Assembly: GCF_003461245.1 (NCBI RefSeq)
Contig: NZ_QTWS01000031.1
Location: 1 to 44,039 of the forward strand
Length of the DNA stretch: 44,039 bases
DNA from: Blautia sp. AF19-10LB
GTDB taxonomy: Bacteria > Bacillota > Clostridia > Lachnospirales > Lachnospiraceae
Direction: 5' to 3'
This document shows positions 187 to 42,199 of this stretch, one piece after another; within the stretch, counting starts at the first letter, position 1; every line of letters starts with the position of its first letter. The notes under the pieces were generated by a model, which saw only the letters and a program-made list of their open reading frames with translations, did not search any database and had not been told where the DNA came from. The translations under genes and the position numbers were made by a program.

Positions 187-1128
187 TTACTTTAAATGGT
201 ATCTGGTAATATTTTTCCAGTTTTCCGGGAAACCCATTTTATTCAATAATTCCGTTTCGCTTATATGCTCTACCTCTCTGTTTACTCGGTCAATCTCTTT
301 TATAAGCTTTCTTTTAAATTCCAGAAAATCTTTTCCAGGTAATAGATATCTAAAAGCAATCACCACAGCAAACAGATCCTGTTTTCCTTTTTCATACTGG
401 TTACCGCTCTGTGGTAATGAAAGTTTTTTATGAAGCGGTGTATCCGCAATAGCATCTACTGTTCTGTATGTAAACAGTCGTTCCCCATGGGCACATACAT
501 TCCTATACTTAGTGAGAACAGATAGAAACTGCTCCATCTGATGCTGATTCAAAGGTTCAAAGTTTTTTGATACTTTTGATTTTAAAGATTGAGGAAATAC
601 TCGAAACATTTTTGATAAGTTTCCAAACGTAAGTACATTTGCCAAAACCCATAATGGAATTTCACCATATGTCTTGCGGTAATAGTTGATATATGTATAA
701 TCTGTGGTCGTTGTTGCCCGTTTCAAGGTCGCTATCAACTTTACGATTGTTGCATGATTTCTTTTTGTATTATTATAATTATTAGCATCCAGGTACTGCT
801 TCTGCTCTGCTCCATACATTTCAGTAAAATAGTATGACATCAAAGAACGCATCTGTCGCTCAATCTGCAGTAAATATTTAAAGAACAACTCTCTAAGCTC
901 TGCATCAAACTTATACAGACTGACTATTTCTTCAAAACTTGTTCCTACTTTATATTTCTTTGTATTCGATATTCTAAAAAGATGTTTATATCCTCCCATA
1001 AGAGGAAAATATCCTATTTGACGTAACATCTCTTCCGCATATTCTCTGTCTTTTATTTTTATTCCCTTTTCATCACTGATCCAAGAAACCTGGTCACTAA
1101 AAGAAGAGAATTTTTTCGGTGTCTGCAT
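187..1128 (-). CDS. Abi_2/AbiF-type HEPN protein (abortive infection / RNA-antitoxin toxin candidate)
   Basis: This 313-aa protein belongs to the Abi_2 (AbiD/AbiF) family. The diagnostic segment LWVLANVLTFGNLSKMF lies at about 159-175. A HEPN RNase-type motif RNVCAH (R209-H214, R-x4-H) follows, and an upstream helix carries IERQMRS. Members are phage-defence effectors thought to act as HEPN ribonucleases and are often controlled by a small RNA. I chose the ATG at 1126-1128 because AAGGAG sits 7 bases ahead; the longer reading would translate the terminator stem of the small RNA just upstream. The gene is preceded by that RNA unit (1142-1249) and followed by a strong terminator. Family assignment is firm; toxin or antiphage activity here is inference. 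Confidence 0.88.
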   Translation of the reverse strand: MQTPKKFSSFSDQVSWISDEKGIKIKDREYAEEMLRQIGYFPLMGGYKHLFRISNTKKYKVGTSFEEIVSLYKFDAELRELFFKYLLQIERQMRSLMSYYFTEMYGAEQKQYLDANNYNNTKRNHATIVKLIATLKRATTTTDYTYINYYRKTYGEIPLWVLANVLTFGNLSKMFRVFPQSLKSKVSKNFEPLNQHQMEQFLSVLTKYRNVCAHGERLFTYRTVDAIADTPLHKKLSLPQSGNQYEKGKQDLFAVVIAFRYLLPGKDFLEFKRKLIKEIDRVNREVEHISETELLNKMGFPENWKNITRYHLK

Positions 1129-1141
1129 ATCATTTCTCCTT

Positions 1142-1213
1142 AAAACAAAAGAGGGAGAGACCCGCAGGCTCTCCCCCGCCTGTAGGCTTCGCAAGTTTCT
1201 ACAGAACGATCAC
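1142..1213 (-). ncRNA. Small structured RNA upstream of abiF (candidate abiF-type antitoxin RNA)
   Basis: Between a near-perfect promoter and the abiF Shine-Dalgarno lies a unit of about 70 nt with no ORF. Its first hairpin pairs 1199-1204 with 1180-1185 (CTGTAG/CTACAG, 13-nt loop). The second pairs GGGAGAG with CTCTCCC (1169-1175 with 1153-1159, 9-nt loop) and is followed by a T-rich tail (TCTTTTGTTTT), so it works as an intrinsic terminator. A structured 'abiF' RNA is known from comparative work next to such genes, and RNA antitoxins of Abi HEPN proteins have been proposed. I recall this and did not check it. The transcript start near 1213 is inferred from the promoter. Confidence 0.65.
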
Positions 1214-1220
1214 TGAGCTT

Positions 1221-1249
1221 AGTATACGTCATTTTAAATGTCCTGTCAA
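1221..1249 (-). promoter_or_regulatory. Strong promoter of the abiF-associated RNA
   Basis: On the minus strand TTGACA (1249-1244) and TATACT (1226-1221) are exactly 17 bases apart. It is the best sigma-A promoter in this part of the window. The first thing it transcribes is the terminated small RNA, so full-length abiF mRNA would require read-through. Confidence 0.8.
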
Positions 1250-1289: not shown

Positions 1290-1415
1290 CTATGCTGTTT
1301 TTTCTTCCTTATTCTGTTTTTCTTCCTCCAACTCCCGGAGGACTTCTTCGCCGTACTTATCAATCATCCGTACCAGAAAATCAATGCACCGCTCAAATTC
1401 AATATTCTGTTGCAT
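1290..1415 (-). CDS. 41-aa hypothetical protein, related to the small protein before the serine recombinase
   Basis: The ORF starts at an ATG preceded by GGGAGGAG. It reads F-E-R-C-I-D-F-L-V-R-M-I-D-K-Y-G-E-E-V-L-R-E-L and then a charged Glu/Lys tail. The pattern F..(x)I..(x)V..I..KYG..VL.EL is shared with the 50-aa protein at 22583-22735, which precedes the large serine recombinase in the same orientation. Function is unknown. Here the position where a recombinase might be expected holds the AbiF unit instead, which suggests a shared leader-type gene of integrative elements. Confidence 0.6.
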   Translation of the reverse strand: MQQNIEFERCIDFLVRMIDKYGEEVLRELEEEKQNKEEKTA

Positions 1416-1538
1416 AAGCTCCTCCCGTCATTGTTTTGATCTGAGCTTATTTTACAGAACCTGCCGGAAAACCACATTGAATAGAAATTGATTGCAAATT
1501 GACACAATCACTTTAAAAATATCCACATTTTCTCGAAC

Positions 1539-1599: not shown

Positions 1600-3912
1600 T
1601 TGAATCGATGCGATTTTTCTTCTATTATCACTTGCTTAAAAAATCATATCAGCGAAAGTAATCAAATGAGTCAGCCTGATTTTTTATACGAATTATTTGA
1701 AGATTTTATGGATGATCCGGCAAATCAGGATTTTTCAATGGACAACGGTCTGGTTTGCCGCTGGATGACTGGTCAGGCTAAAATCAGTCCTAAAATATCC
1801 GCTTACTATTCCAAGACATCCAATCAGGAAAAATTAGCCCATACCATCCACCAGAATCTTCTTCCACTGATGTCTGACTGTAATATGACTATACAAGATA
1901 TTTACACTTTATTCATTCAGGATGACAGCATCTCAGATGCAAAAAAGAAAAATCTGGCTTCTCTGTACAAACCAGCCAGTTCAAGACTGCTGTTTCTTGC
2001 AAAACTGATTTCTTTTGGCATGGAACGCCAATTCATCAAACGTAATACCAAAAATCAGAAGCTACTCGCCGGAGGGGCTTTATCCCCCATTGTGCTGGAT
2101 TATATTATGGATAGTGAGGTTCCGAAACCATGCCGTCATTTTATCGGAAGAGATAAAGAACTGGAAGAATTATATACCATGCTTGAGGAAAACCGTCATG
2201 TTTTTCTTTGCGGAATCGCCGGAATCGGAAAAAGTGAACTTGTCAAAGCCTACGCAAAGCGGTACATAAAGCAATACACCAATATACTTTATGTAGAATA
2301 TACCGGCAATCTTCATCAGGATATTACTGACATGGATTTTATTGACGATTTGCCGGAAAGCACTGAACAGGAACGGTTTCAAAGACATAACCGTTTCCTG
2401 CGTTCCCTGAAATCCGATACTCTGCTTATCATAGATAATTTTAATGTCACTGCGACACAGGACAGCTTTCTGTCAGTAGTATTAAAATATCGCTGCCAGA
2501 TTTTGTTTACAACCAGAAGCAAACTGGATGAATACTGTACTCTGCCATTAAAAGAAATAGAGGATATGAACGCTCTCTTCCAGCTGGCATCAGTATTTTA
2601 TTCAGAGGCAGACACGTACCGGGCAACAGTTGAAAAGATCATCGAAACTGTTCACTCACATACTTTTGCCGTGGAACTGGCAGCAAAACTTCTGGAAAAT
2701 GGAATCTCAACTCCAGACCAGTTATTAGCAAGACTTCAGGTGGAAAAAGCATCTTTCCATAACGAAGATAAAATTAAAATAATCAAAGATGGACAAAGCA
2801 GCAAAGCCACCTATTACAGTCATATCCATACGCTGTTTTCTTTATACACTTTATCTCTTGAACAGCAGGATATCATGTGTAATATGTGCTTTCTTCCTTC
2901 CACCGGTATTTCTGCCCGTATATTTGCCAAATGGCTGGAACTGCCCACACTAAATGAAATCAACAATTTAATTGAGACTGGTTTCGTTCAGACAACAACA
3001 CGTCGCACTATCTCTCTGCATCCGATGATTCAGGAAATCACCCTTTCAGAGACAAAACCATCTGTAACTCGCTGCCACATATTACTGGATTCTTTACAGA
3101 AAATATGTTTAATGCATGGAATGGAAGTAGATTATTACAAAAAGCTATTTCAAACAATCGGAAATATCATAGTATTGATTGAAAAGGATGATATACCAAA
3201 GTATCTGCTTTTTCTGGAAAATGCATTTCCATACATGGATAACTATAACTATCACAAAGGTATGAATGGAATCATTCAGGAACTGACGGGGCTGTTAAAG
3301 ACAAAAAACATTGGAACCGACTCTGACCGGGCATTATTACTAGATTTTCAGGCAACTCTTGAAACCAAACCTGAAAAAGCAATAAAACTGGAAAAGGATG
3401 CACTTGCCCAGATAGAAAATATCACTGCCGACAATGCTCGCCTTGTTTCCAACCTTCATGCCAATCTCGGTGGACTTTACCGCATGAACGGTCATCCCGA
3501 TCTTGCAAGAGAACACATGGAAAAAAGTATCTCACTGCTTGACCAATTTAACCTGCTTCATATAAATGACAGCATACCTCAGATTGCCAATTATGCAATG
3601 TTCCTGACAGAACAGCAGGAACCTGAAAGAGGCATCTCCGAATTGCAAAAATTATCCGGCATCATCAAGGAATACCATTCCGATGACTGTCTGGATTATG
3701 CCAAAGTACAGGAAACCCTTGGAACCATTTATCTGATGACTGCCAATCTTCCGCAAACCAAAACACATTTTAAAAGAGCTTTCAAAATATATGAAAAGAT
3801 CTGGGCTGATGAACCAGAAATGATTGAAGCAAAATATCAGGAAATTCAGGAGTTATATCCACAGATTGGATTTTGCATTGGAAAAAATCTATCCGGTCTT
3901 TTAACAAAATAA
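1600..3912 (+). CDS. STAND/NB-ARC-type NTPase with C-terminal TPR-like repeats
   Basis: This 770-aa cytoplasmic protein has three parts. Residues 1-170 are an uncharacterised helical region with a possible DNA-binding or effector role. An NB-ARC-like ATPase follows, with Walker A GIAGIGKS (205-212), Walker B TLLIIDN (274-280) and the TTRS element (304-307). The C-terminal third, from about 560, has helical TPR-like repeats (LHANLGGLYRMNGHPDLA, then ETLGTIYLM). STAND proteins act as ligand-triggered switches in transcription control, signalling or antiphage defence. Translation starts at TTG 1600 behind GAAAGGGG. The gene is monocistronic, behind a LexA-like box and ahead of a 9-bp terminator. 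Close relatives are, from memory, common in gut clostridial mobile elements without known function. Confidence 0.82.
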   Translation: MNRCDFSSIITCLKNHISESNQMSQPDFLYELFEDFMDDPANQDFSMDNGLVCRWMTGQAKISPKISAYYSKTSNQEKLAHTIHQNLLPLMSDCNMTIQDIYTLFIQDDSISDAKKKNLASLYKPASSRLLFLAKLISFGMERQFIKRNTKNQKLLAGGALSPIVLDYIMDSEVPKPCRHFIGRDKELEELYTMLEENRHVFLCGIAGIGKSELVKAYAKRYIKQYTNILYVEYTGNLHQDITDMDFIDDLPESTEQERFQRHNRFLRSLKSDTLLIIDNFNVTATQDSFLSVVLKYRCQILFTTRSKLDEYCTLPLKEIEDMNALFQLASVFYSEADTYRATVEKIIETVHSHTFAVELAAKLLENGISTPDQLLARLQVEKASFHNEDKIKIIKDGQSSKATYYSHIHTLFSLYTLSLEQQDIMCNMCFLPSTGISARIFAKWLELPTLNEINNLIETGFVQTTTRRTISLHPMIQEITLSETKPSVTRCHILLDSLQKICLMHGMEVDYYKKLFQTIGNIIVLIEKDDIPKYLLFLENAFPYMDNYNYHKGMNGIIQELTGLLKTKNIGTDSDRALLLDFQATLETKPEKAIKLEKDALAQIENITADNARLVSNLHANLGGLYRMNGHPDLAREHMEKSISLLDQFNLLHINDSIPQIANYAMFLTEQQEPERGISELQKLSGIIKEYHSDDCLDYAKVQETLGTIYLMTANLPQTKTHFKRAFKIYEKIWADEPEMIEAKYQEIQELYPQIGFCIGKNLSGLLTK

Positions 3913-20583: not shown

Positions 20584-22530
20584 TTAGATCATCGCAAAAT
20601 ATTTCAGGGCAGCCTTGATAGCATCTTCTTTCTCTTTCGGACACTGTGGCACTTTTGGATTTTCTGTCTTTGGCAGATTATAGTTCTCTCCTACTTCGAT
20701 TCCACATTTCCTTTTGATTTGAGAAATATATAAATTTGAAACCTTCAAGCCAAATTCTTTCAGCACATAATCTTTGATTTCCTGATAGGTCGCTTTCGTC
20801 TCTGCACTGGTTGCATCCAGCTCATCTAAGTCTAAGTCGATCTCTATCGTGTCATCTGGTTTTTGTTGGGACAAAAGAACAACCGTCTCAACGGTATTAC
20901 CTTTTTCCCACAAGAGCCGCCTTACCTCTTGACCATCCCGATATATTGGGAAATTAAACTCTATTGACTTCAAAGGCTGCTCTGACTCCCCATTTGGATA
21001 TATCTGAATTTCTTTTATGAGATAAGTAATAAGGCTTTTCTTTTCCTCGTCACTTATTATATCATAGAGCTTTCCGAAATTCAGCATAAGCTTGTAAATA
21101 TTGTCCAGAGTGATTGCTTCCATTTCGATAGAACTTTTTCTCAGCTTTGCATCTTCAATCCGTTCTTCCAACTCGACAATCGTATCATACAATCCATCAA
21201 GCCTTAATGTCATGTCGTGGATTTTTCTTTCTCTGAAACGAGCATCAATAGGCAGATTATCAATTTCTCGCTCCAGACGGGCTTTATTCAAATCTACTTC
21301 TTTCAGCTTGCTCTCATAATTGGCAAGTTCCTTATCAATAGCAGTGGTATCGGTCTGTACGCCAATACGCTTTTCTATCTCTTTTGCAAAATATTTATCA
21401 CTTACCAATTCTTTAACAGCTTCAATTACAAGTGGTTCAATGTCTGTTTTTCTAAGCGATGCCTTGTAATCACAATGATGCCCTCGCTCCTGCTTGTTCC
21501 TACCGCAGATATAATAGTAAACTTCTTTGTATGTGCCATCTTTATTCGTCCACGCATGTTTATTCGTATACATTGAGCTTCCACAAAGAGGACACTTTAA
21601 TATTCCCGTCAACAGATGTGACCTGTCCTTACCTATTTTGGACGGCTGCTTAATTCCTGTTGCCATACGTTTTGTGTGAGCTTTTTGCCATAATTCTTCG
21701 CTAACTATTCCTTCGTGTTGTCCATCTTCCAGAATATAATCATCTGTATGAACCTGCTTATATTCATTTTTTGTGCCTTTTACCTTTTCTCGTGTTCTTC
21801 TGCCATAAGCAATCTTTCCACAATAAACAGGATTGTCTAATATCAACCGTATAAAATGACTGCTCCAAGTTTCTAATGTGCCGTTCTGACGAGGTATCTT
21901 CTTTATACCTTGAAGATTAAGATATTTTGCTACCCCGCCAAGTCCTATGTCAGAATTAGCAAATTTATCAAATATAATTCTGATTGCTTCAGCTTCCGTT
22001 TCTTCTATCAAGAGCTGATTGTCTTTCAGATAATATCCGTATGGTGCAAATCCACCATTCCACCCACCTTGTCGTGCTTTTTCTCTCCGTCCATTCATTG
22101 TCTGTTCAATGATATTTTCTCTTTCAATTTCTGCAACCGCAGATAATACAGAAATTAAAAGTTTTCCGCTTGTCTGTGATGAGTCAATACCTTCCTCAAT
22201 ACAAATAAGATTTATTCCATACGACTGCACAAACTCCAATGAATTTAGAATATCTGCTGCGTTTCTTCCAAATCGTGAAAGTTTATAGACCAGAATATAA
22301 TCTATCTCCAATCCGTTCTTTATATCGGAAAGCATCTTCTTAAAAGCAGGTCTCCCCTCAATAGATTTTCCCGATTTACCCGCATCTTCATATATACCAA
22401 CAATCTCCATTTCCTCTCTGTCAGCAAATCGTTTCAGGCTATTCTTCTGCCCTTCAAGGCTATATCCGTCCACCTGCATTTCAGTACTTACTCTCGGATA
22501 TAGGACACATTTCTTTCCTTCTCTGTTCAT
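20584..22530 (-). CDS. Large serine recombinase (TnpX/TndX type integrase-excisionase)
   Basis: 648 aa, Shine-Dalgarno GGAGGTGG. The N-terminal resolvase domain (1-145) has the nucleophile S15 in YPRVST and conserved Arg in YKLSRFGRN. A Recombinase domain (about 165-280) is followed by a zinc ribbon (CPLCG ... CGRNK...HHC, about 315-350). A coiled-coil region (about 380-470) leads to a DNA-binding C-terminus. Such enzymes integrate and excise conjugative elements without an accessory integration factor. Its position at one end of the transfer operon suggests it is the integrase of the 20.2-44 kb element. The attachment sites could not be defined. Confidence 0.93.
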   Translation of the reverse strand: MNREGKKCVLYPRVSTEMQVDGYSLEGQKNSLKRFADREEMEIVGIYEDAGKSGKSIEGRPAFKKMLSDIKNGLEIDYILVYKLSRFGRNAADILNSLEFVQSYGINLICIEEGIDSSQTSGKLLISVLSAVAEIERENIIEQTMNGRREKARQGGWNGGFAPYGYYLKDNQLLIEETEAEAIRIIFDKFANSDIGLGGVAKYLNLQGIKKIPRQNGTLETWSSHFIRLILDNPVYCGKIAYGRRTREKVKGTKNEYKQVHTDDYILEDGQHEGIVSEELWQKAHTKRMATGIKQPSKIGKDRSHLLTGILKCPLCGSSMYTNKHAWTNKDGTYKEVYYYICGRNKQERGHHCDYKASLRKTDIEPLVIEAVKELVSDKYFAKEIEKRIGVQTDTTAIDKELANYESKLKEVDLNKARLEREIDNLPIDARFRERKIHDMTLRLDGLYDTIVELEERIEDAKLRKSSIEMEAITLDNIYKLMLNFGKLYDIISDEEKKSLITYLIKEIQIYPNGESEQPLKSIEFNFPIYRDGQEVRRLLWEKGNTVETVVLLSQQKPDDTIEIDLDLDELDATSAETKATYQEIKDYVLKEFGLKVSNLYISQIKRKCGIEVGENYNLPKTENPKVPQCPKEKEDAIKAALKYFAMI

Positions 22531-22823: not shown

Positions 22824-23204
22824 TCATACCTGCTTTACACATTTGTTTTCATTTTTTTCAAGTGCAACACTAATGGCAAGAGCCTTGTCAACTCTTGCCA
22901 TTATGTTATTGGGCATCATTCCCATATACTGTTTTAACCTCTGCTTATCAATCGTCCGTATCTGCTCAAGCAGGATAACAGAGTCCTTGTCAAGCCCTTC
23001 ATAATTACTTACTGGGGTATGTGTGGGCAACTTTGCTTTTGTGTGTACTCGGCTCGTAATTGCTGCAATGATTACCGTCGGGCTGTGCTTGTTTCCTATA
23101 TCATTGGAAATGATAAGTACAGGTCTTGTGCCGCCTTGTTCCGAGCCGATAACGGGATTAAGCTCCGCATAATAAATGTCGCCACGCTTAATAATTCGTT
23201 CCAT
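22824..23204 (-). CDS. MazF/PemK-family toxin-like protein
   Basis: 126 aa behind GGAGGTCAAACACA. The N-terminal [28 protein letters not shown] and VIIAAITSR segments are the MazF/PemK/CcdB-fold signature. [13 protein letters not shown] supplies the later conserved strand-helix. MazF proteins are sequence-specific mRNA endonucleases normally neutralised by a MazE-type antitoxin. No antitoxin ORF is seen on either side, so this is either an orphan or paired with an unrecognised partner. Confidence 0.87.
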
Positions 23205-23790
23205 TGTGTTTGACCTCCCAATATGATTTAGACAGATGCTTCCTGCCTATGTAGGCAGCCAAACGCAAGGAAGTATTTAAGGTCGGAAGTATCTTAACAA
23301 TATCTCTGTTCTTATGACCGCCTTTCGCTTGGCTGATATGATAGAAGCATTTCAACTTGTCCTCGACACCCCGAAATGCTATGGGAAATCGCCAAACGGT
23401 CAGCAGCGAACTGACACCACGGGAGTTCCACCCCAACTGTCGGTCTGACAGAGCCGCCCTCATTGCCTGCGACGGTTTTTTCACGCTCGGACTGTGACTG
23501 GACGGGAGTATCATTATCCTCTTTGTGGGTTATGGCGAAATCGGGAGCTACCCGATATTTTGAGTCGGTAAAGATAGGCTCACCACCTTTCAATCGCTCG
23601 CTGCCGCTTGGCAGGTCGTGGCGTACCGCTACACACGCTTATGCTCATCACAATCACAAAGAGAAAGTATTTGGCGAATGGGTATTCGATTGTCAAGGAG
23701 CTATCCCGTTTTCGCCACACAAAGGAAAACAGGGTAAGAGGTTTTTTGTCCTCTCACCCTGTAGCCCGTGGGAATATTCAATTTTCCCCT
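23205..23790 (-). other. 586-bp stretch without a credible gene
   Basis: ORFs of 90-119 codons exist on both strands, but their composition is unlike protein and they overlap one another. Visible structure: hairpins GTCAG/CTGAC around 23400-23415 and CTGTC/GACAG around 23440-23455, and a strong stem CAGGGT-AGAGG/CCTCT-ACCCTG (23730-23761, 8-nt loop) just after the sigma-factor stop. The last one probably terminates or processes the sigma transcript. The rest could hold an untranslated RNA or a protein-binding region. Confidence 0.5.
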
Positions 23791-32291: not shown

Positions 32292-34625
32292 TTAGACCTC
32301 ACCGAACTTAGTCGTCATCAACTTGTAAAGCTCGGTATTTCGTGGGAACTTGTTTACAAACGGTACAAGGGAGCTGCCTACTTTGAGTAATCCCTGTCCT
32401 GCACCGACATTCGTGATATAACTCATCTGAAGGTCGGAGATATTAAGGAGCTTGGCAAGCTCAAGTCTGTCCGTAGATGCTTGGTTAAGCATAATGATAA
32501 ATTCGCTGTTAGCAAGCATAGTCCTTGCCGTATGGCTCTGCAAAAGATCGTCCACATTCTGCGTAATACCCGTACAGTACGCACCGTATTTACGCACACG
32601 CTTCCAGAGGGTAAAGAGAAAGTTTGCAGAGTATTCGTGCTGAAAGAGCAGATAGATTTCATCAATGAAAATAAAGGTATTTCTGCCTTTGGCTCTGTTC
32701 TGCGTGATACGGTTTAAGATACTGTCAAGCACCACAAGCATACCGATAGGCTGTAACTGCTTACCCAAATCCAGAATGTCATAGCAGATAAGGCGGCTGT
32801 GAGTATCAACATTCGTGTGCTTTGCAAAGGTGTTGAGCGAACCGTCCGTAAACAGCTCAATCGCAAGAGCGATTTCCTGTGCTTCTGGCTCATTCTGTTT
32901 TAACAGCTCCTCACGGAAGTCCTGCAAGGTGGGCGGCGTTCCCATATAGTTGCCCTGCTGATAGTAGCGGTACACGCTTGCCGTACATCGGTCAATAATG
33001 GATTTCTGCTTTGCTCCCAAGTTCGTGCCGCCGATGAGCTGTTCGCAAAGGGATAAAATAAACTCCGATTTCAGAATGACAGGGTTTGCACCGTCACCGT
33101 AATCGGAGTTCATATCCATAGCATTGATGTGATTTTCACTTGTCGCAGAGATATGAATGACTTCTCCCTGCATTGCTTTCACAAGCGGGGAATACTCACG
33201 CTCTGGGTCAATGATGATTATATCGGCATTAGGGTCGGTCAGAATGATATTCGTCATTTCTTCCTTTGCGGTAAAAGATTTTCCTGCACCTGACACACCG
33301 AGAATAAAGGAATTGCCGTTAAGGAGCTGCCTGCGGTTGGCAATAATCATATTTTTGCTGATGACATTCTGACCGTAATACACACCGTTTTCGTGGTAAA
33401 TTTCCTGCACACGGAACGGTATAAACACTGCAAGGCTCTCTGTTGTGAGGGTACGCAGGGCATCTATCTTCCGTACACCAAATGGCAGAGCTGTATTTAA
33501 TCCGTCCATCTGTTGATATTTCAGCACCGCAAACTGGCACAAGTGCTTTCTTGCGGTAGTCAAGAGAGCTTCTGTATCATTGTCGAGCTGCTCTTTAGTG
33601 TCAGCCGTATGCACCATCGTCAGCACGGCAAACATCATTCTCTGGTCACGGGTTGTCAAATCGTCCAGAAATTCCTTACTTTCCTTTCGCTGCTGTTCCA
33701 AATCATAGGGGATAACGGCTGAAAAATTGTTGTTCTGGTTCTGCTTCCTCTGCCAATTCGTAATGTTAGTTTCCACACCAAGCAGACGGTTTTCCACCTC
33801 CTGCACGGCTTCATCTGTGGGAACGGGGATAATGTCAACGGACAGCATCATATTCCTGTTCAACTCACAAAGCTCCGCCACCATACTGTCCTTGATATAT
33901 GCCGCATACTCTCTGAGAAAAATCACACGCCCATATCTGTCACCCATTCTGAAGCAGTCGCTCTCAAATTCAAAGGTATCAGGGCAGATAAAATCCTTGA
34001 AATTGTGACCTTTCCGCATCGTCTGGGTAATATCGAAGTGGAACGCTGTTTCTTCTCCTGTACGGTAGAAGTCGTGGAAGATACGCAGCTTGTCGCCTGC
34101 GTCCAGTTCCACACACTTCGACCCCAGACGGTTAAAGTGGGCGATAAGGTCAGCACCCACACGGGCAAAGTAGTTTCGGGCTTCCTCGATATTCTTCTTG
34201 CAGACAGATACGGTTACATACTTATCCTGTACGATGGAATTAGCCCCTGTCGCCTTATCCAAAAGCATTTTGTTGTATTCCTTGCGGTACTTATCCAGAC
34301 CGTCATCAGCCATTGGGATTAAAATGGTCTGTTCAAAATCAGCTTTGTTCAAGCGACGGTTGTTGATAGTGATTTTCGTGGTCGCACCGCTGTCAAGGGA
34401 ATTAAGAAGCTCCGAGTATTCAAGGAACATTGCTTCCTTATCCTCACGGCTTGCCACGGCATAGTTTATATCCTCAAACTTAAAGGTCTTTGCGTACTTG
34501 TTCCTGCCTACAAGAAATATGCCGTCCTCCCAGATTGTCTTAATCGGGATAACATTTTGTACCGACTTCGGCACAACAAACTTTTCCCTGTCCTGCTTGA
34601 ACAGATTTTTAAGAGTTCTCAGCAT
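32292..34625 (-). CDS. VirB4-like conjugation ATPase (CD1110 family)
   Basis: 777 aa, Shine-Dalgarno AAGGAGGTAA. The N-terminal half is the substrate/channel-binding region. The C-terminal RecA-like ATPase has Walker A GVSGAGKS (443-450) and Walker B FIFIDEIYLLF near residue 670. VirB4 drives assembly and substrate translocation of the type IV secretion apparatus at the inner face of the membrane. The start lies 17 bases inside the PrgI gene. Confidence 0.93.
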   Translation of the reverse strand: MLRTLKNLFKQDREKFVVPKSVQNVIPIKTIWEDGIFLVGRNKYAKTFKFEDINYAVASREDKEAMFLEYSELLNSLDSGATTKITINNRRLNKADFEQTILIPMADDGLDKYRKEYNKMLLDKATGANSIVQDKYVTVSVCKKNIEEARNYFARVGADLIAHFNRLGSKCVELDAGDKLRIFHDFYRTGEETAFHFDITQTMRKGHNFKDFICPDTFEFESDCFRMGDRYGRVIFLREYAAYIKDSMVAELCELNRNMMLSVDIIPVPTDEAVQEVENRLLGVETNITNWQRKQNQNNNFSAVIPYDLEQQRKESKEFLDDLTTRDQRMMFAVLTMVHTADTKEQLDNDTEALLTTARKHLCQFAVLKYQQMDGLNTALPFGVRKIDALRTLTTESLAVFIPFRVQEIYHENGVYYGQNVISKNMIIANRRQLLNGNSFILGVSGAGKSFTAKEEMTNIILTDPNADIIIIDPEREYSPLVKAMQGEVIHISATSENHINAMDMNSDYGDGANPVILKSEFILSLCEQLIGGTNLGAKQKSIIDRCTASVYRYYQQGNYMGTPPTLQDFREELLKQNEPEAQEIALAIELFTDGSLNTFAKHTNVDTHSRLICYDILDLGKQLQPIGMLVVLDSILNRITQNRAKGRNTFIFIDEIYLLFQHEYSANFLFTLWKRVRKYGAYCTGITQNVDDLLQSHTARTMLANSEFIIMLNQASTDRLELAKLLNISDLQMSYITNVGAGQGLLKVGSSLVPFVNKFPRNTELYKLMTTKFGEV

Positions 34626-37172: not shown

Positions 37173-38963
37173 TTATAAATTGAATATTTCTTCCAAGTCC
37201 TCATCGGACAGAAGCTCATAGGAAGTGCTGACAGCTTTCACGCTCACGGCGTTATCTGGAATATCACTGTCAAACACAAGGGTTGCGACAGCCTGCGTAG
37301 GCTCTCCGTGGATATACGGTGGTTGCCCTCCGTCAGCCGTCAGCTTCACATTCGGGTGCTTCAAGATGTCATACTTGAAGTCCATAACGGGGCGTTCTCC
37401 ACGCACAAAAAGAAGTGCGTAACGGTTATCAAGCATACGCACTTCGTCTGGGGTCATCAGCTCACGCCCCGAAATCTGATAATTTGTTGAATAGTTACCA
37501 CTCCGCCCAGAGCTTTTCCCGTAGGTGTTGGTATCAATGGTTTCCTTGCCCAAAAGCTCTGACACATATTTATGGGTGCTTTGCTCGTTGCCGCCCAGAT
37601 ACAGAAACTCATCGCAGTTGCCGACAATGCTTTCCCATTGCTTTTCAAAAAGGGCTTTGAGCTGTGCCAGATTTTGCAGAATAATGGATACCGATACCCC
37701 TCTGGAACGCATAACAGACAGGATTTTATCAAAGTCATCAGGCAATGAAACATTCGCAAATTCGTCCATTATGAAATGGCAATGCACAGGCAGGCTTCCG
37801 CCGTACTTGTGGTCTGCCAGATAAAAAAGCTGTTGAAAGAGCTGGGTATAAAGGATACTGACAAGGAAGTTAAAGCTCGTGTCGTTGTCGGGTATCAGAG
37901 CGAACAGAGCGACCTTCTTTTCTCCCAGACTTGGCAGGTCAAGCTCATCGGTGGCGGTCAGTCCTGCAAGGCTCTCCAGATTGAATTTTTCAAGCCTTGC
38001 GGCAAGGGTTATCTGGATACTCTTTAAGGTCTTTGCACTACCAGAGTGGTAATCCCTGTAATACTTAAGGGCGATATGCTCTGGGTTTACCATTTCCAGA
38101 CGGTCAAACAGCTCATCCAGAGGGCTTACATAGCTGTCATCGTCCTCTCGGACTTCGCCTGCACGGAGCAGCTCCATAACCATCGGGAAATTCTGCTCGT
38201 CTGGCGGTGCTTCATATTTCAGATAAAAAACCAGAGCCAGAAGCAGCATACTCGCCGCCGTATCCCAGAACGGGTCTTGCGACTGTGAGCCTTTCGGCGT
38301 GGTCGCCTTAAACAAGTTTGTTACCAACCTCTGAACATCGTTATCGTTCCGCAGATAGACAAAGGGATTGTAACAATGGCTGCAGTGCATATTGATAAGG
38401 TCAAGCACACGCACCTCATAGCCTTTATTTTCCAACAGACCCCCGATGTCACGGACGATTTCGCCCTTTGGGTCGAGTATTACAAAAGATGTGTTGCACT
38501 GCATAGCATTTGGCTTGCAGAAAAACCTTTTTTTACCCGCACCAGAGCCGCCGCAGACTAAAATATTCAGATTCCTGCGGTGCTTTTTCCCGTCCAACCC
38601 AATACGGACATTCTGGGTCAAGAGCTTATTAGCTGACGGGTCTTTATCTCGGTACTTCTTATTCAAAGCACCTGCGTTGCCCCATTTCGCAGAGCCGTGT
38701 TCCTCACGCCTGCGGTAGTTCCTGCGTGTAGAGAAATAAACGCCGATGCCCATAGCGTAGGCAAGCCAAAAAATAAGGACAGTCTTTATGCTGTCCTCAC
38801 ACATCGTTATTTCAAGCGGATTGCCCATCGCCACGGGCATACCTCGGATAATCTCTACAAGACCGCCGCTGACATAGGGTGCTGTCAGCAGGGCAAGCCA
38901 TACAACAGGAAGTATGCCGCAAACAGTAAGGATTAGGCTCGTTTTCTGGTCATCGTTCCTCAT
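37173..38963 (-). CDS. VirD4-like coupling protein (CD1115 family) with altered Walker A
   Basis: 596 aa. Two N-terminal membrane helices (ILTVCGILPVVWLALLTAPY; TVLIFWLAYAMGIGVYF) precede an ATPase with Walker A GGSGAGKK (138-145), FVILDPKGEI, and Walker B CHFIMDEFANV. Coupling proteins dock the relaxase-DNA complex to the secretion channel. The residue after the catalytic Lys is normally Thr or Ser and coordinates Mg; here it is Lys (codon 38531-38529, inside a run of seven A). The frame is otherwise intact at full length. The start overlaps the preceding small gene by 14 bases. Confidence 0.9.
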   Translation of the reverse strand: MRNDDQKTSLILTVCGILPVVWLALLTAPYVSGGLVEIIRGMPVAMGNPLEITMCEDSIKTVLIFWLAYAMGIGVYFSTRRNYRRREEHGSAKWGNAGALNKKYRDKDPSANKLLTQNVRIGLDGKKHRRNLNILVCGGSGAGKKRFFCKPNAMQCNTSFVILDPKGEIVRDIGGLLENKGYEVRVLDLINMHCSHCYNPFVYLRNDNDVQRLVTNLFKATTPKGSQSQDPFWDTAASMLLLALVFYLKYEAPPDEQNFPMVMELLRAGEVREDDDSYVSPLDELFDRLEMVNPEHIALKYYRDYHSGSAKTLKSIQITLAARLEKFNLESLAGLTATDELDLPSLGEKKVALFALIPDNDTSFNFLVSILYTQLFQQLFYLADHKYGGSLPVHCHFIMDEFANVSLPDDFDKILSVMRSRGVSVSIILQNLAQLKALFEKQWESIVGNCDEFLYLGGNEQSTHKYVSELLGKETIDTNTYGKSSGRSGNYSTNYQISGRELMTPDEVRMLDNRYALLFVRGERPVMDFKYDILKHPNVKLTADGGQPPYIHGEPTQAVATLVFDSDIPDNAVSVKAVSTSYELLSDEDLEEIFNL

Positions 38964-40032: not shown

Positions 40033-40845
40033 TTACCTCGTTTCTTTGGATTTTGGTTTCTTTTTCTTTCTCTGGGGCTGTTTATGCTCCGTTTTCCCGT
40101 TAACACTTTTCGCCCTGTCGGAAGCTCCGCTTTTGTCCAGGACGGAAGTGTTAATCTCTGCTTTCTGCTCCTTGCGGCTCTCCTTGATTTTCCGCAGTTC
40201 CTCTCTGACAGAAGGTTTCTCCTTAGTCATAGTAGCCCCCTCTGCGGATTTCTTTGGCTGCTCTGAGGTAGGCTCGGACTGAGGGGATTTTTCTGTCTTT
40301 GCCACCGAGGGGTTTGGTGCGTTTTCCTCCTTCTGGACAGGCTTGCCCATAAGCTCGTCAAGCAGCTTATCTTTCTCCGCCTTTTCCTGCACACCAATAT
40401 CTGGCTCTGGCTGACCGTCCTTTGCATCTTTGGATTTCTCGGCTTCCGTCACAATAGAAGCGGTATCCACCGAAGCAAGATTAAAGCGTTCCACAATACG
40501 GCTGATTTTCGATGCGTCCTCGGCACGAGCGATGACATCGACCTCTGCATTTGGGTCTTTGTTTTTTCTGTCCGTGAGGACGCAGTAAAGCACACCGTAT
40601 TTTTTTGCTTCCTGCGTGAACTTCTTTAAGTCGCCGCTTTTGACGGTAAAGACTTTCAGCTCCTTGCCAGAACGGAGCATACTTGTCAGCCTTGCTTTTC
40701 CTTTGGTTTTCTTTTCTTCTTTGAGAATGGAATACAACAGGATAGCGATGTTCTTCGCACCTGCACCTGTGATTTTGGCAGCGACCTCAAAGCCCTCCAA
40801 GCTCATTCGGACGATTTGTTCTGCCGCTTCGCCGCCTGTGTTCAT
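40033..40845 (-). CDS. PcfB-family (DUF3801) relaxosome/coupling accessory protein
   Basis: 270 aa. The conserved half (residues 1-150: GAKNIAILLYSILKEEKKTK, GKELKVFTVKSGDLKKFTQE, GVLYCVLTDRKNKDPNAEVD) is the PcfB/DUF3801 domain. The C-terminal 120 residues are a disordered, Lys/Glu/Pro-rich tail. PcfB binds the relaxase and coupling protein in pCF10-like systems. The gene overlaps the relaxase gene by 59 bases, indicating tight coupling. Confidence 0.87.
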   Translation of the reverse strand: MNTGGEAAEQIVRMSLEGFEVAAKITGAGAKNIAILLYSILKEEKKTKGKARLTSMLRSGKELKVFTVKSGDLKKFTQEAKKYGVLYCVLTDRKNKDPNAEVDVIARAEDASKISRIVERFNLASVDTASIVTEAEKSKDAKDGQPEPDIGVQEKAEKDKLLDELMGKPVQKEENAPNPSVAKTEKSPQSEPTSEQPKKSAEGATMTKEKPSVREELRKIKESRKEQKAEINTSVLDKSGASDRAKSVNGKTEHKQPQRKKKKPKSKETR

Positions 40846-42199
40846 TCTTCATCAGCTCCTTTCTTCGCTGTTCGTTTTCGTCTGCCCGTATCGTCTGCAA
40901 TTTTTCCTTGAGGGTATCACTACGGGCGGAAATGCCCTCGCACAGTCTGACCTCCTTTCGGATAACTTTCAGCCGCCCCGAAATATCGGAAATCTCTGCC
41001 TTGACCGCTTCCTTTTCTTCGCCGCTTATCCTGCGGGATTTGGAGTAAAGCTCCTTTCGCTTCTGAAGCAGGGCAGACATCTCCGTTTCCAGAGAGCCTT
41101 TATATGAACAAAGCTGCTCCGCCGTATCAATGTGATTGCGGCAAAGCAGCCTTGTTTCCTGTGTGATAGCTTCCATCTTCATAAGGTCGTCCTTTAAGAG
41201 ATAATGAAGCCGTGCATAATTTTGTTTTCTGCCTTTTGGCAGGATACCGAGCTTGTAGCAGTAATGGAGATACAGTCCACGCAAGCCACCGATTTTCTTA
41301 GCGTTCTTCAAAGAGCCTTTGACCCGATAGACCTTAATCTGTGGCTGTGGCTCCGAGAAGCTCTGGAATTTGACCGCATAGGAATTTTCTCTGATACGCT
41401 CCATAATCCTGTCATTGGTGTATTCCTCTCCGAGCTTATAAAGCCGCTTGGGTCTTTGCCAGCCCTTGCCGATAATCGTCCAATACTTGCGGTTGGGGTC
41501 AAAGTTTATGCGGTAGCCCATTTCTGCCAACTGGCGGTCAAAGTCTTTCAGCGTAAATGATTTGCTGATAGCTTCATCCACCGCTTGTCTGGCAACATTA
41601 TCCCTCGTGGGTCGCCCCTGCTTTTCGGCTTGGTAAAGGGCGTAGGGCTTTTTCTTGCCGCTTGGGTATTCGATGACGGACAGGGCATACTCACGGCAAA
41701 GCTCATCGGAACGCTGACGGAGCAGCCGCAGATTTGCTTTGTTGTCGTGATAGTGCATACCATCGGCAAAAGAAACAGAGTTCACAACAAAGTGATTATG
41801 CAGGCAGTCGGTATTTAGGTGAGTGGCAACGATGACTTGAAATCTGTCGCCCCACATTCGCTCGGCAAGTTTAACGCCGACTTCGTGAGCCTGCTCTGGC
41901 GTAACCTCACCGTGCTTGAAGCTCTGAAAGCCGTGATAGCAGACAATCCCGCTCATATCGTTCCATTGTGCTTTGGCAATCATCATTTCATCTCTGGCAG
42001 TGTTCGGGTCACAATTTACACCTGTGACAAAGAAACGCTGCTCGGTCTTATTCTTATTAGTAGCGTACTCCATTACATCGACCATCGCCTGCAGGTCGGC
42101 TTCGGTGTATTTAGGGTTGACGGTCTTTTCGGGATTTTCGGCATAGTCAATTGGATGGTCGAGCCTGCCACGCACATCCCATATCTCGCAGACCGCCAT
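40787..42199 (-). CDS. MOBP-type conjugative relaxase (Relaxase/mobilization nuclease)
   Basis: 470 aa. The relaxase core lies in residues 1-210, with the metal-binding His set H127, H134 and H136 (HLNTDCLHNHFVVNSVSF) and CYHGFQSFKHGEVTPEQAHE before it; a Tyr within the first 50 residues is the likely nucleophile. The C-terminal half is coiled coil and basic (ends RRRSGRTNRPNELGGL). It nicks the element's own oriT, probably around 42641-42731. The start overlaps mobC by TAATG. Confidence 0.92.
   Translation of the reverse strand: MAVCEIWDVRGRLDHPIDYAENPEKTVNPKYTEADLQAMVDVMEYATNKNKTEQRFFVTGVNCDPNTARDEMMIAKAQWNDMSGIVCYHGFQSFKHGEVTPEQAHEVGVKLAERMWGDRFQVIVATHLNTDCLHNHFVVNSVSFADGMHYHDNKANLRLLRQRSDELCREYALSVIEYPSGKKKPYALYQAEKQGRPTRDNVARQAVDEAISKSFTLKDFDRQLAEMGYRINFDPNRKYWTIIGKGWQRPKRLYKLGEEYTNDRIMERIRENSYAVKFQSFSEPQPQIKVYRVKGSLKNAKKIGGLRGLYLHYCYKLGILPKGRKQNYARLHYLLKDDLMKMEAITQETRLLCRNHIDTAEQLCSYKGSLETEMSALLQKRKELYSKSRRISGEEKEAVKAEISDISGRLKVIRKEVRLCEGISARSDTLKEKLQTIRADENEQRRKELMKNEHRRRSGRTNRPNELGGL

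Follow-up and report, generated by a model that had tools for sequence, protein, structure and literature searches.

In the window (the whole stretch of DNA analyzed, 44,039 nucleotides of a Blautia sp. AF19-10LB contig), abiF and the small RNA encoded directly upstream of it probably constitute a type-III-like RNA-antitoxin/HEPN-toxin module in which the toxin gene is reached by read-through of a terminator. The pair is of the AbiF RNA-antitoxin kind, which is already known, and its RNA belongs to a covarying class, R1, that is unlisted in Rfam 15; no paper on R1 was among those listed by literature searches. The features of the locus are as follows.

187–1128, minus strand: abiF, intact, encoding an Abi_2/HEPN protein of 313 aa (PF07751, 167.7 bits)
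487–504, minus strand: HEPN motif RNVCAH, residues 209–214, the only Rx4H motif of AbiF
1126–1128, minus strand: ATG start codon of abiF (from sequence)
1136–1141, minus strand: Shine-Dalgarno AAGGAG of abiF (from sequence)
1142–1150, minus strand: U-rich tail of the terminator (from sequence)
1142–1215, minus strand: R1-class small RNA, predicted transcript (R1 model match 1148–1215, 76.8 bits, the window RNA being itself among the 19 sequences that built the model)
1151–1177, minus strand: hairpin 2, the terminator hairpin (from folding; U-rich tail directly 3')
1179–1205, minus strand: hairpin 1, candidate AbiF-binding element (1205–1199 pairs with 1185–1179)
1221–1249, minus strand: SigA-type promoter TTGACA-17-TATACT (11 of 12 consensus bases)
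1600–3912, plus strand: STAND/TPR NTPase gene, divergent, adjoining abiF

The near-perfect promoter claimed by the sequence-only reading holds up. Its boxes (TTGACA, 1249–1244; TATACT, 1226–1221) are separated by a 17 nt spacer and it ends 5 nt upstream of the predicted RNA (model match 1215–1148). Hairpin 1 consists of a 7-bp outer stem, a 3-bp inner stem, and a conserved loop. Hairpin 2 was missed by a simple terminator scan. The 22 nt between hairpin 2 and the ATG are too short for a second promoter, so abiF is predicted to be expressed by read-through, as that reading had concluded. Taken on its own, the window sequence is weak evidence for an RNA: promoter-like sites in 4 kb number 17 versus 13.2 ± 3.2 in shuffles, a count not beyond chance, and the single-sequence fold is modest (z of −1.75 to −1.95 across four cuts, with 7 to 9 of 200 shuffles equally stable). 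The RNA is beyond chance because its pairing and the position of its promoter are conserved in relatives.

A protein search of genome contigs yielded 50 abiF loci, the closer of which have the same RNA upstream of the gene; the copy in the commensal Butyribacter intestini encodes a protein 100% identical to that of the window. In a set of 19 distinct copies, pairing holds in 96.0% of pair cells versus 83.7% ± 1.1% in shuffles and 47–60% with slid partners, hairpin 1 is 100% paired, and double changes occur at 13 of 20 pairs. Covariation in homologues, whose absence the sequence-only reading had named as a refutation, is thus present, and the two-hairpin RNA of about 70 nt that it placed ahead of abiF is upheld. 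Further pair types are not above shuffles in the 19 copies (26 versus 28.3) and number 57 versus 41.3 in a larger set. The R1 covariance model detects the RNA in 67 of 397 genomes from the family of the nearest genome and in 17 of 391 from its class. In total there are 93 R1 matches (the window plus 87 fetched loci), with double changes at 18 of 20 pairs; the 19-copy test is the cleaner of the two since the alignment made by the R1 model favors its own structure. Among copies linked to abiF, 377 of 378 hairpin-1 pair cells are formed, 52 of 57 copies have a promoter of at least 9/12 sited 2–9 nt before R1 (versus 40 of 1,860 random positions), and 56 of 57 terminate in a T-rich tail. No plasmid homologues of the window RNA region were found.

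The protein belongs securely to its family, as its PF07751 score compares with a curated cut-off of 25.6 bits, and PADLOC calls it AbiD. The RNVCAH motif noted from sequence is confirmed as its sole Rx4H motif, and R209, N210, A213, and H214 are invariant in alignments of 18 and of 30 AbiF proteins. Its computed fold is that of PbAbiF. By analogy with characterized relatives, AbiF is probably a HEPN RNase and a toxin.

R1 is distinct from RF03085, the abiF RNA family for which Weinberg 2017 is reportedly the source. The abiF-type covariance model to which the sequence-only reading had pointed failed to detect the window RNA: RF03085 has no match at E ≤ 10 in positions 1000–1600, a scan of the complete window yielded nothing that reached the gathering score, and none of 12 R1 loci is matched at E ≤ 0.5. 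Both are small hairpin RNAs upstream of abiF, but in the RF03085 loci examined here the hairpin continues, by eye, straight into a T-rich stretch, whereas R1 has a separate terminator hairpin. Among 30 loci chosen for the best Abi_2 protein matches (L088–L117), the upstream RNA is R1 in 12, an RF03085 match (E ≤ 0.5) in 11, neither in seven, and both in none; most of those 11 score slightly below the gathering threshold.

The R1 class is associated with one clade of AbiF. In a tree of 94 proteins, thinned by similarity from 135, the 57 R1 carriers make up one side of a branch (95/89); 14 rows were relabeled from RNA-search matches before the clade count. Because some R1 rows entered through the RNA search, this tests that no non-R1 protein of the 94 lies inside the clade and does not measure how often its members lose the RNA. 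The branch appears in 97% of bootstrap trees, none of 500 shuffles was as low, and all 15 proteins with RF03085-type RNAs are in the other main branch. Two AbiFs outside the tree count against the pair reading: L278, by HMM score a likely member of the R1 clade, has R1 solely downstream of its gene, and L279 has no R1.

The leader arrangement extends beyond R1. A rule of a promoter, 25–130 nt, a hairpin with T-run, and then the gene fits 57 of 92 non-redundant AbiF genes, including that of the window, versus nine of 113 other genes in the same loci. Among the Bacilli, the AbiFs of L027, L028, L030, and L031 fail the rule and that of L029 passes; the failures were counted against the pair reading. 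By eye, all five have a −10-like box immediately ahead of the ribosome site. Sequence comparison revealed recurrent leaders, CAGAGTTGCC...GGGACCA in six AbiF loci, TTGCCAGTTTGTCCTCCGGTGTCC in three, and four more types in two to four loci each. These six types beyond R1 and Rfam are found in L116, L263–L265, L269, L273–L277, L280–L283, L288, L294, L295, L297, and L299, and that of L274–L277 may be an RF03085 variant. Upstream of abiF in Indiicoccus explosivorum (L033:2810–2940), a hairpin-1-like unit occurs in two nearly identical copies; a T-run follows each copy, and a promoter-like stretch separates them.

In classical type III systems (ToxIN), the gene for a ribonuclease toxin follows that for an RNA antitoxin, and a terminator separates the two. 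The window pair is alike in that an RNA with its own predicted promoter and terminator is upstream of the toxin gene. It differs in that the classical antitoxin RNA is tandemly repeated and its toxin is not of the HEPN/Abi_2 type, whereas the window has a single copy (positions 900–2000 contain no repeats at the RNA) and a HEPN/Abi_2 toxin. A nearer likeness is RCd22/AbiF of C. difficile phage phi027, which excerpts of PMC12373285 describe as a SigA promoter, an RNA, a terminator, read-through, and a toxic AbiF that RCd22 neutralizes in cis and in trans by direct binding and whose toxicity is abolished by changes of R202/H207. SigA promoter, structured RNA, terminator, and read-through into an Abi_2/HEPN gene are shared, but RCd22, in the same excerpts, has two RF03085 motifs, whereas the window RNA has one hairpin of another class and a separate terminator hairpin. 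The AbiF relative in phiC2 is 25% identical to that of the window. For PbAbiF/AbiFr (PDB 8vz6; Zilberzwige-Tal et al. 2025, as referred to in excerpts of PMC12373285 and PMC12737573), with one RNA bound per monomer (excerpts of PMC12737573), the likeness is known here from the protein through its shared fold. Structure, covariation, clade association, and published likeness together support the RNA-antitoxin/HEPN-toxin architecture that the sequence-only reading had expected.

By analogy with these systems, the R1 RNA would be the antitoxin and hairpin 1 the element recognized by AbiF. The strong promoter would produce many copies of the ∼70-nt RNA, with most transcripts ending at hairpin 2 and a minority reading through to yield AbiF, such that termination would hold the AbiF dose low. 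Two RNVCAH motifs in an AbiF dimer would build the RNase site, and hairpin 1 would bind and block the dimer. Disturbance of host transcription, for example by a phage, would cause a shortage of R1, and AbiF would then halt growth. Carried on a mobile element, the pair would also stabilize that element.

Copies of R1 away from abiF count against reading it as half of a toxin-antitoxin pair. Of the 93 matches, 57 directly precede abiF, 33 lack it within 400 nt, and contig ends cut the other three; in the class-wide search, four of 12 further matches are before abiF and eight are without it. A clear abiF remnant is present at only one of 49 unlinked places, viral ones included (L151, E of 4e-7). 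By eye, L131 seems to retain the start of abiF. Hairpin 1 is paired in 227 of 232 cells of unlinked copies, a figure that is not independent proof since the model search itself favors paired copies; 19 of 36 retain a promoter of at least 9/12. Some of these copies may be relics, because their conserved columns match less well (84% agreement versus 96% in abiF-linked copies). There are also doubled copies: a second R1 lies about 30–60 nt behind abiF, in an RNA-abiF-RNA arrangement, at L132:3067–3130, L124:2001–2068, L150:37–95, L017:1248–1315 (likewise L047), and L053:1321–1389, and in genomes G013 and G202, RF03085 matches flank an Abi_2 match on both sides. At four loci (L143, L160, L232, and L237), each in a different genome and three of them within a single genus, R1 has no recognizable promoter and is followed by an ORF of 59–70 aa and a P-loop ORF that by eye is zeta-toxin-like.

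R1 also occurs in phages. Pattern scans of viral contigs followed by R1 scoring identified ten contigs whose R1 match scores at least 44 bits, with the remaining pattern stretches at 31 bits or less. Two kinds of match were not counted as R1, one to hairpin 1 only (24.7 bits) in a tRNA-rich stretch (L244/L252/L253) and one of 30.9 bits (L245/L250). An Abi_2 gene is in two of the ten whole viral records (L211 and L247, the reading frame of the latter being split), and a search by peptide patterns for viral relatives of AbiF found one, 100% identical to the window protein. The other eight contigs, five by distinct RNA, have R1 without Abi_2. In two phage groups (L209/L228 and L216/L225/L226), R1 sits within a tRNA array, with tRNA-Met on one side and tRNA-Arg on the other, no more than 3 nt from each tRNA and, in L216, overlapping tRNA-Met by one base. 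Between the groups, R1 differs at six of 68 positions with the same fold and one compensated pair, while the product of the neighboring gene is 36% identical and matching flanking DNA 77–79% identical. These array copies retain both hairpins, with no promoter above 7/12 and no four-T run. BLAST of the array RNA against isolated phages gave no match. The R1 copies of L224, L229, and L210 do not adjoin tRNA genes.

The phage copies bear on the alternative that the RNA is solely a cis-acting attenuator, with the terminator setting abiF expression and AbiF not binding the RNA. The terminator hairpin is immediately upstream of the gene, the T-rich tail is kept in nearly all abiF-linked copies, and excerpts of PMC12373285 indicate that RCd22 works partly through termination. 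Yet the best conserved covarying element is hairpin 1, not the terminator, and in phage tRNA arrays R1 is retained in the absence of abiF, with both hairpins but neither a promoter above 7/12 nor a four-T run, to which attenuation is a poor fit and a trans-acting RNA an easy one. We regard attenuation alone as improbable. A still smaller chance is given to the RNA being a positive cofactor or guide that takes AbiF to a target RNA, in the manner of a Cas13 crRNA. AbiF/RNA pairs have been proposed as ancestral to RNA-guided Cas13 (excerpts of PMC12373285 and PMC12737573). Cas13 itself has two HEPN domains per chain, and the window AbiF has one Rx4H motif in its 313 aa; a CRISPR-type repeat array was not found within positions 900–2000.

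It is hard to credit the RNA with antisense control of abiF translation: by sequence its end adjoins the abiF start region, but pairing between hairpin 1 and that region does not exceed shuffles at any of nine loci (best rank 31 of 200, in L007). Finally, the unremarkable single-sequence fold and promoter count would suit a chance promoter with hairpins and no functional RNA, but covariation, conserved promoter position, and clade association reduce this to a negligible prospect. The RNA-antitoxin/HEPN-toxin module is the preferred reading.

Beside abiF, the STAND/TPR gene is also found at full length in L001 and as shorter pieces in L036, L037, L107, and L242. Between it and the R1 promoter, by eye, is a small ORF of ∼41 aa with a ribosome site (1291–1416, minus strand). 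The window contains another toxin-like gene preceded by a leader RNA: a MazF/PemK-like ORF, named by eye (22824–23204, minus strand), with an Rfam pemK RNA upstream (RF02913, 44.9 bits; 23417–23517, minus strand). Other ORFs named by eye are serine-recombinase-like (20584–22530), VirB4-like (32292–34625), VirD4-like (37173–38963), and relaxase-like (40787–42199), suggesting that the abiF module rides an integrative conjugative element.

RF03085-type RNAs are likewise found in viral contigs and isolated phages (L300–L400 and L431–L433). An exact loop pattern hit 101 viral-contig stretches, of which 97 remained after dropping three without the outer stem (L309, L344, and L350) and one at a stretch edge (L329), and 79 are distinct by flank. 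Ten of 20 sampled loci, two of the 20 being dropped ones, reach the Rfam gathering score; many others have longer loops. Only one of the 79 viral records, which may be fragments, has an Abi_2 gene (none of 50 and one of 29). Among the initial 80 loci, with the four dropped ones counted, the bases adjoining the RNA were available for 76 (75 without AbiF and one with) and four are cut. In the 397 bacterial genomes there are 36 RF03085 matches at E ≤ 0.05, of which, by coordinates and with Abi_2 among the matches listed, at least 19 are before Abi_2, 14 are not, and three are undecided. Linkage to Abi_2 differs between the viral and bacterial sets (Fisher P of 6e-11, undecided cases taken as unlinked), sets that are not strictly alike since a pattern located the viral RNAs and a model the bacterial ones.

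Six of the 79 RNAs are within 60 nt of a tRNA (versus 188 of 15,800 random positions); of the tRNA-near loci, L308 and L373 reach the gathering score, the tRNA-array loci L321 and L323 have no RF03085 match at E ≤ 0.5, and the case for tRNA clusters in this class is carried by L373 and L433. BLAST identified three isolated phages that have the RNA between annotated genes and above the gathering score: Aeromonas phage PZL-Ah8 (50.1 bits), Salicola phage CGphi29 (50.1 bits), and Synechococcus phage S-SZBM1 (55.7 bits), where it ends 4 nt before tRNA-Ala within a tRNA cluster. All three records lack an Abi_2 match. A lone abiF RNA was already described for S-CREM1 (excerpt of PMC9964418).

The boldest reading, held at roughly even odds, is that AbiF antitoxin RNAs escaped from their toxins into phages, where they would act in trans as counter-defense by disarming host AbiF, with R1 fitted into the tRNA operon of two diverged phage groups in the manner of an additional tRNA; alternatively, these RNAs may serve phages as terminators or in some other way. 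According to a reference title, a region of lactococcal phage sk1 protects against AbiF, and no paper on phage AbiF RNAs as counter-defense was among those listed by literature searches. Lone phage copies of both R1 and RF03085 RNAs predict RNA-based anti-AbiF counter-defense, which is testable, and if this is true, R1 would be one of several lineage-specific classes of AbiF antitoxin RNA mimicked by phages. Where Rfam searches met one AbiF RNA family, R1 is a second, strongly covarying one that tracks a single protein clade. The matched series of toxins and RNAs makes it possible to ask how a single protein family came to exchange its RNA partner, as was required for RNA guidance.
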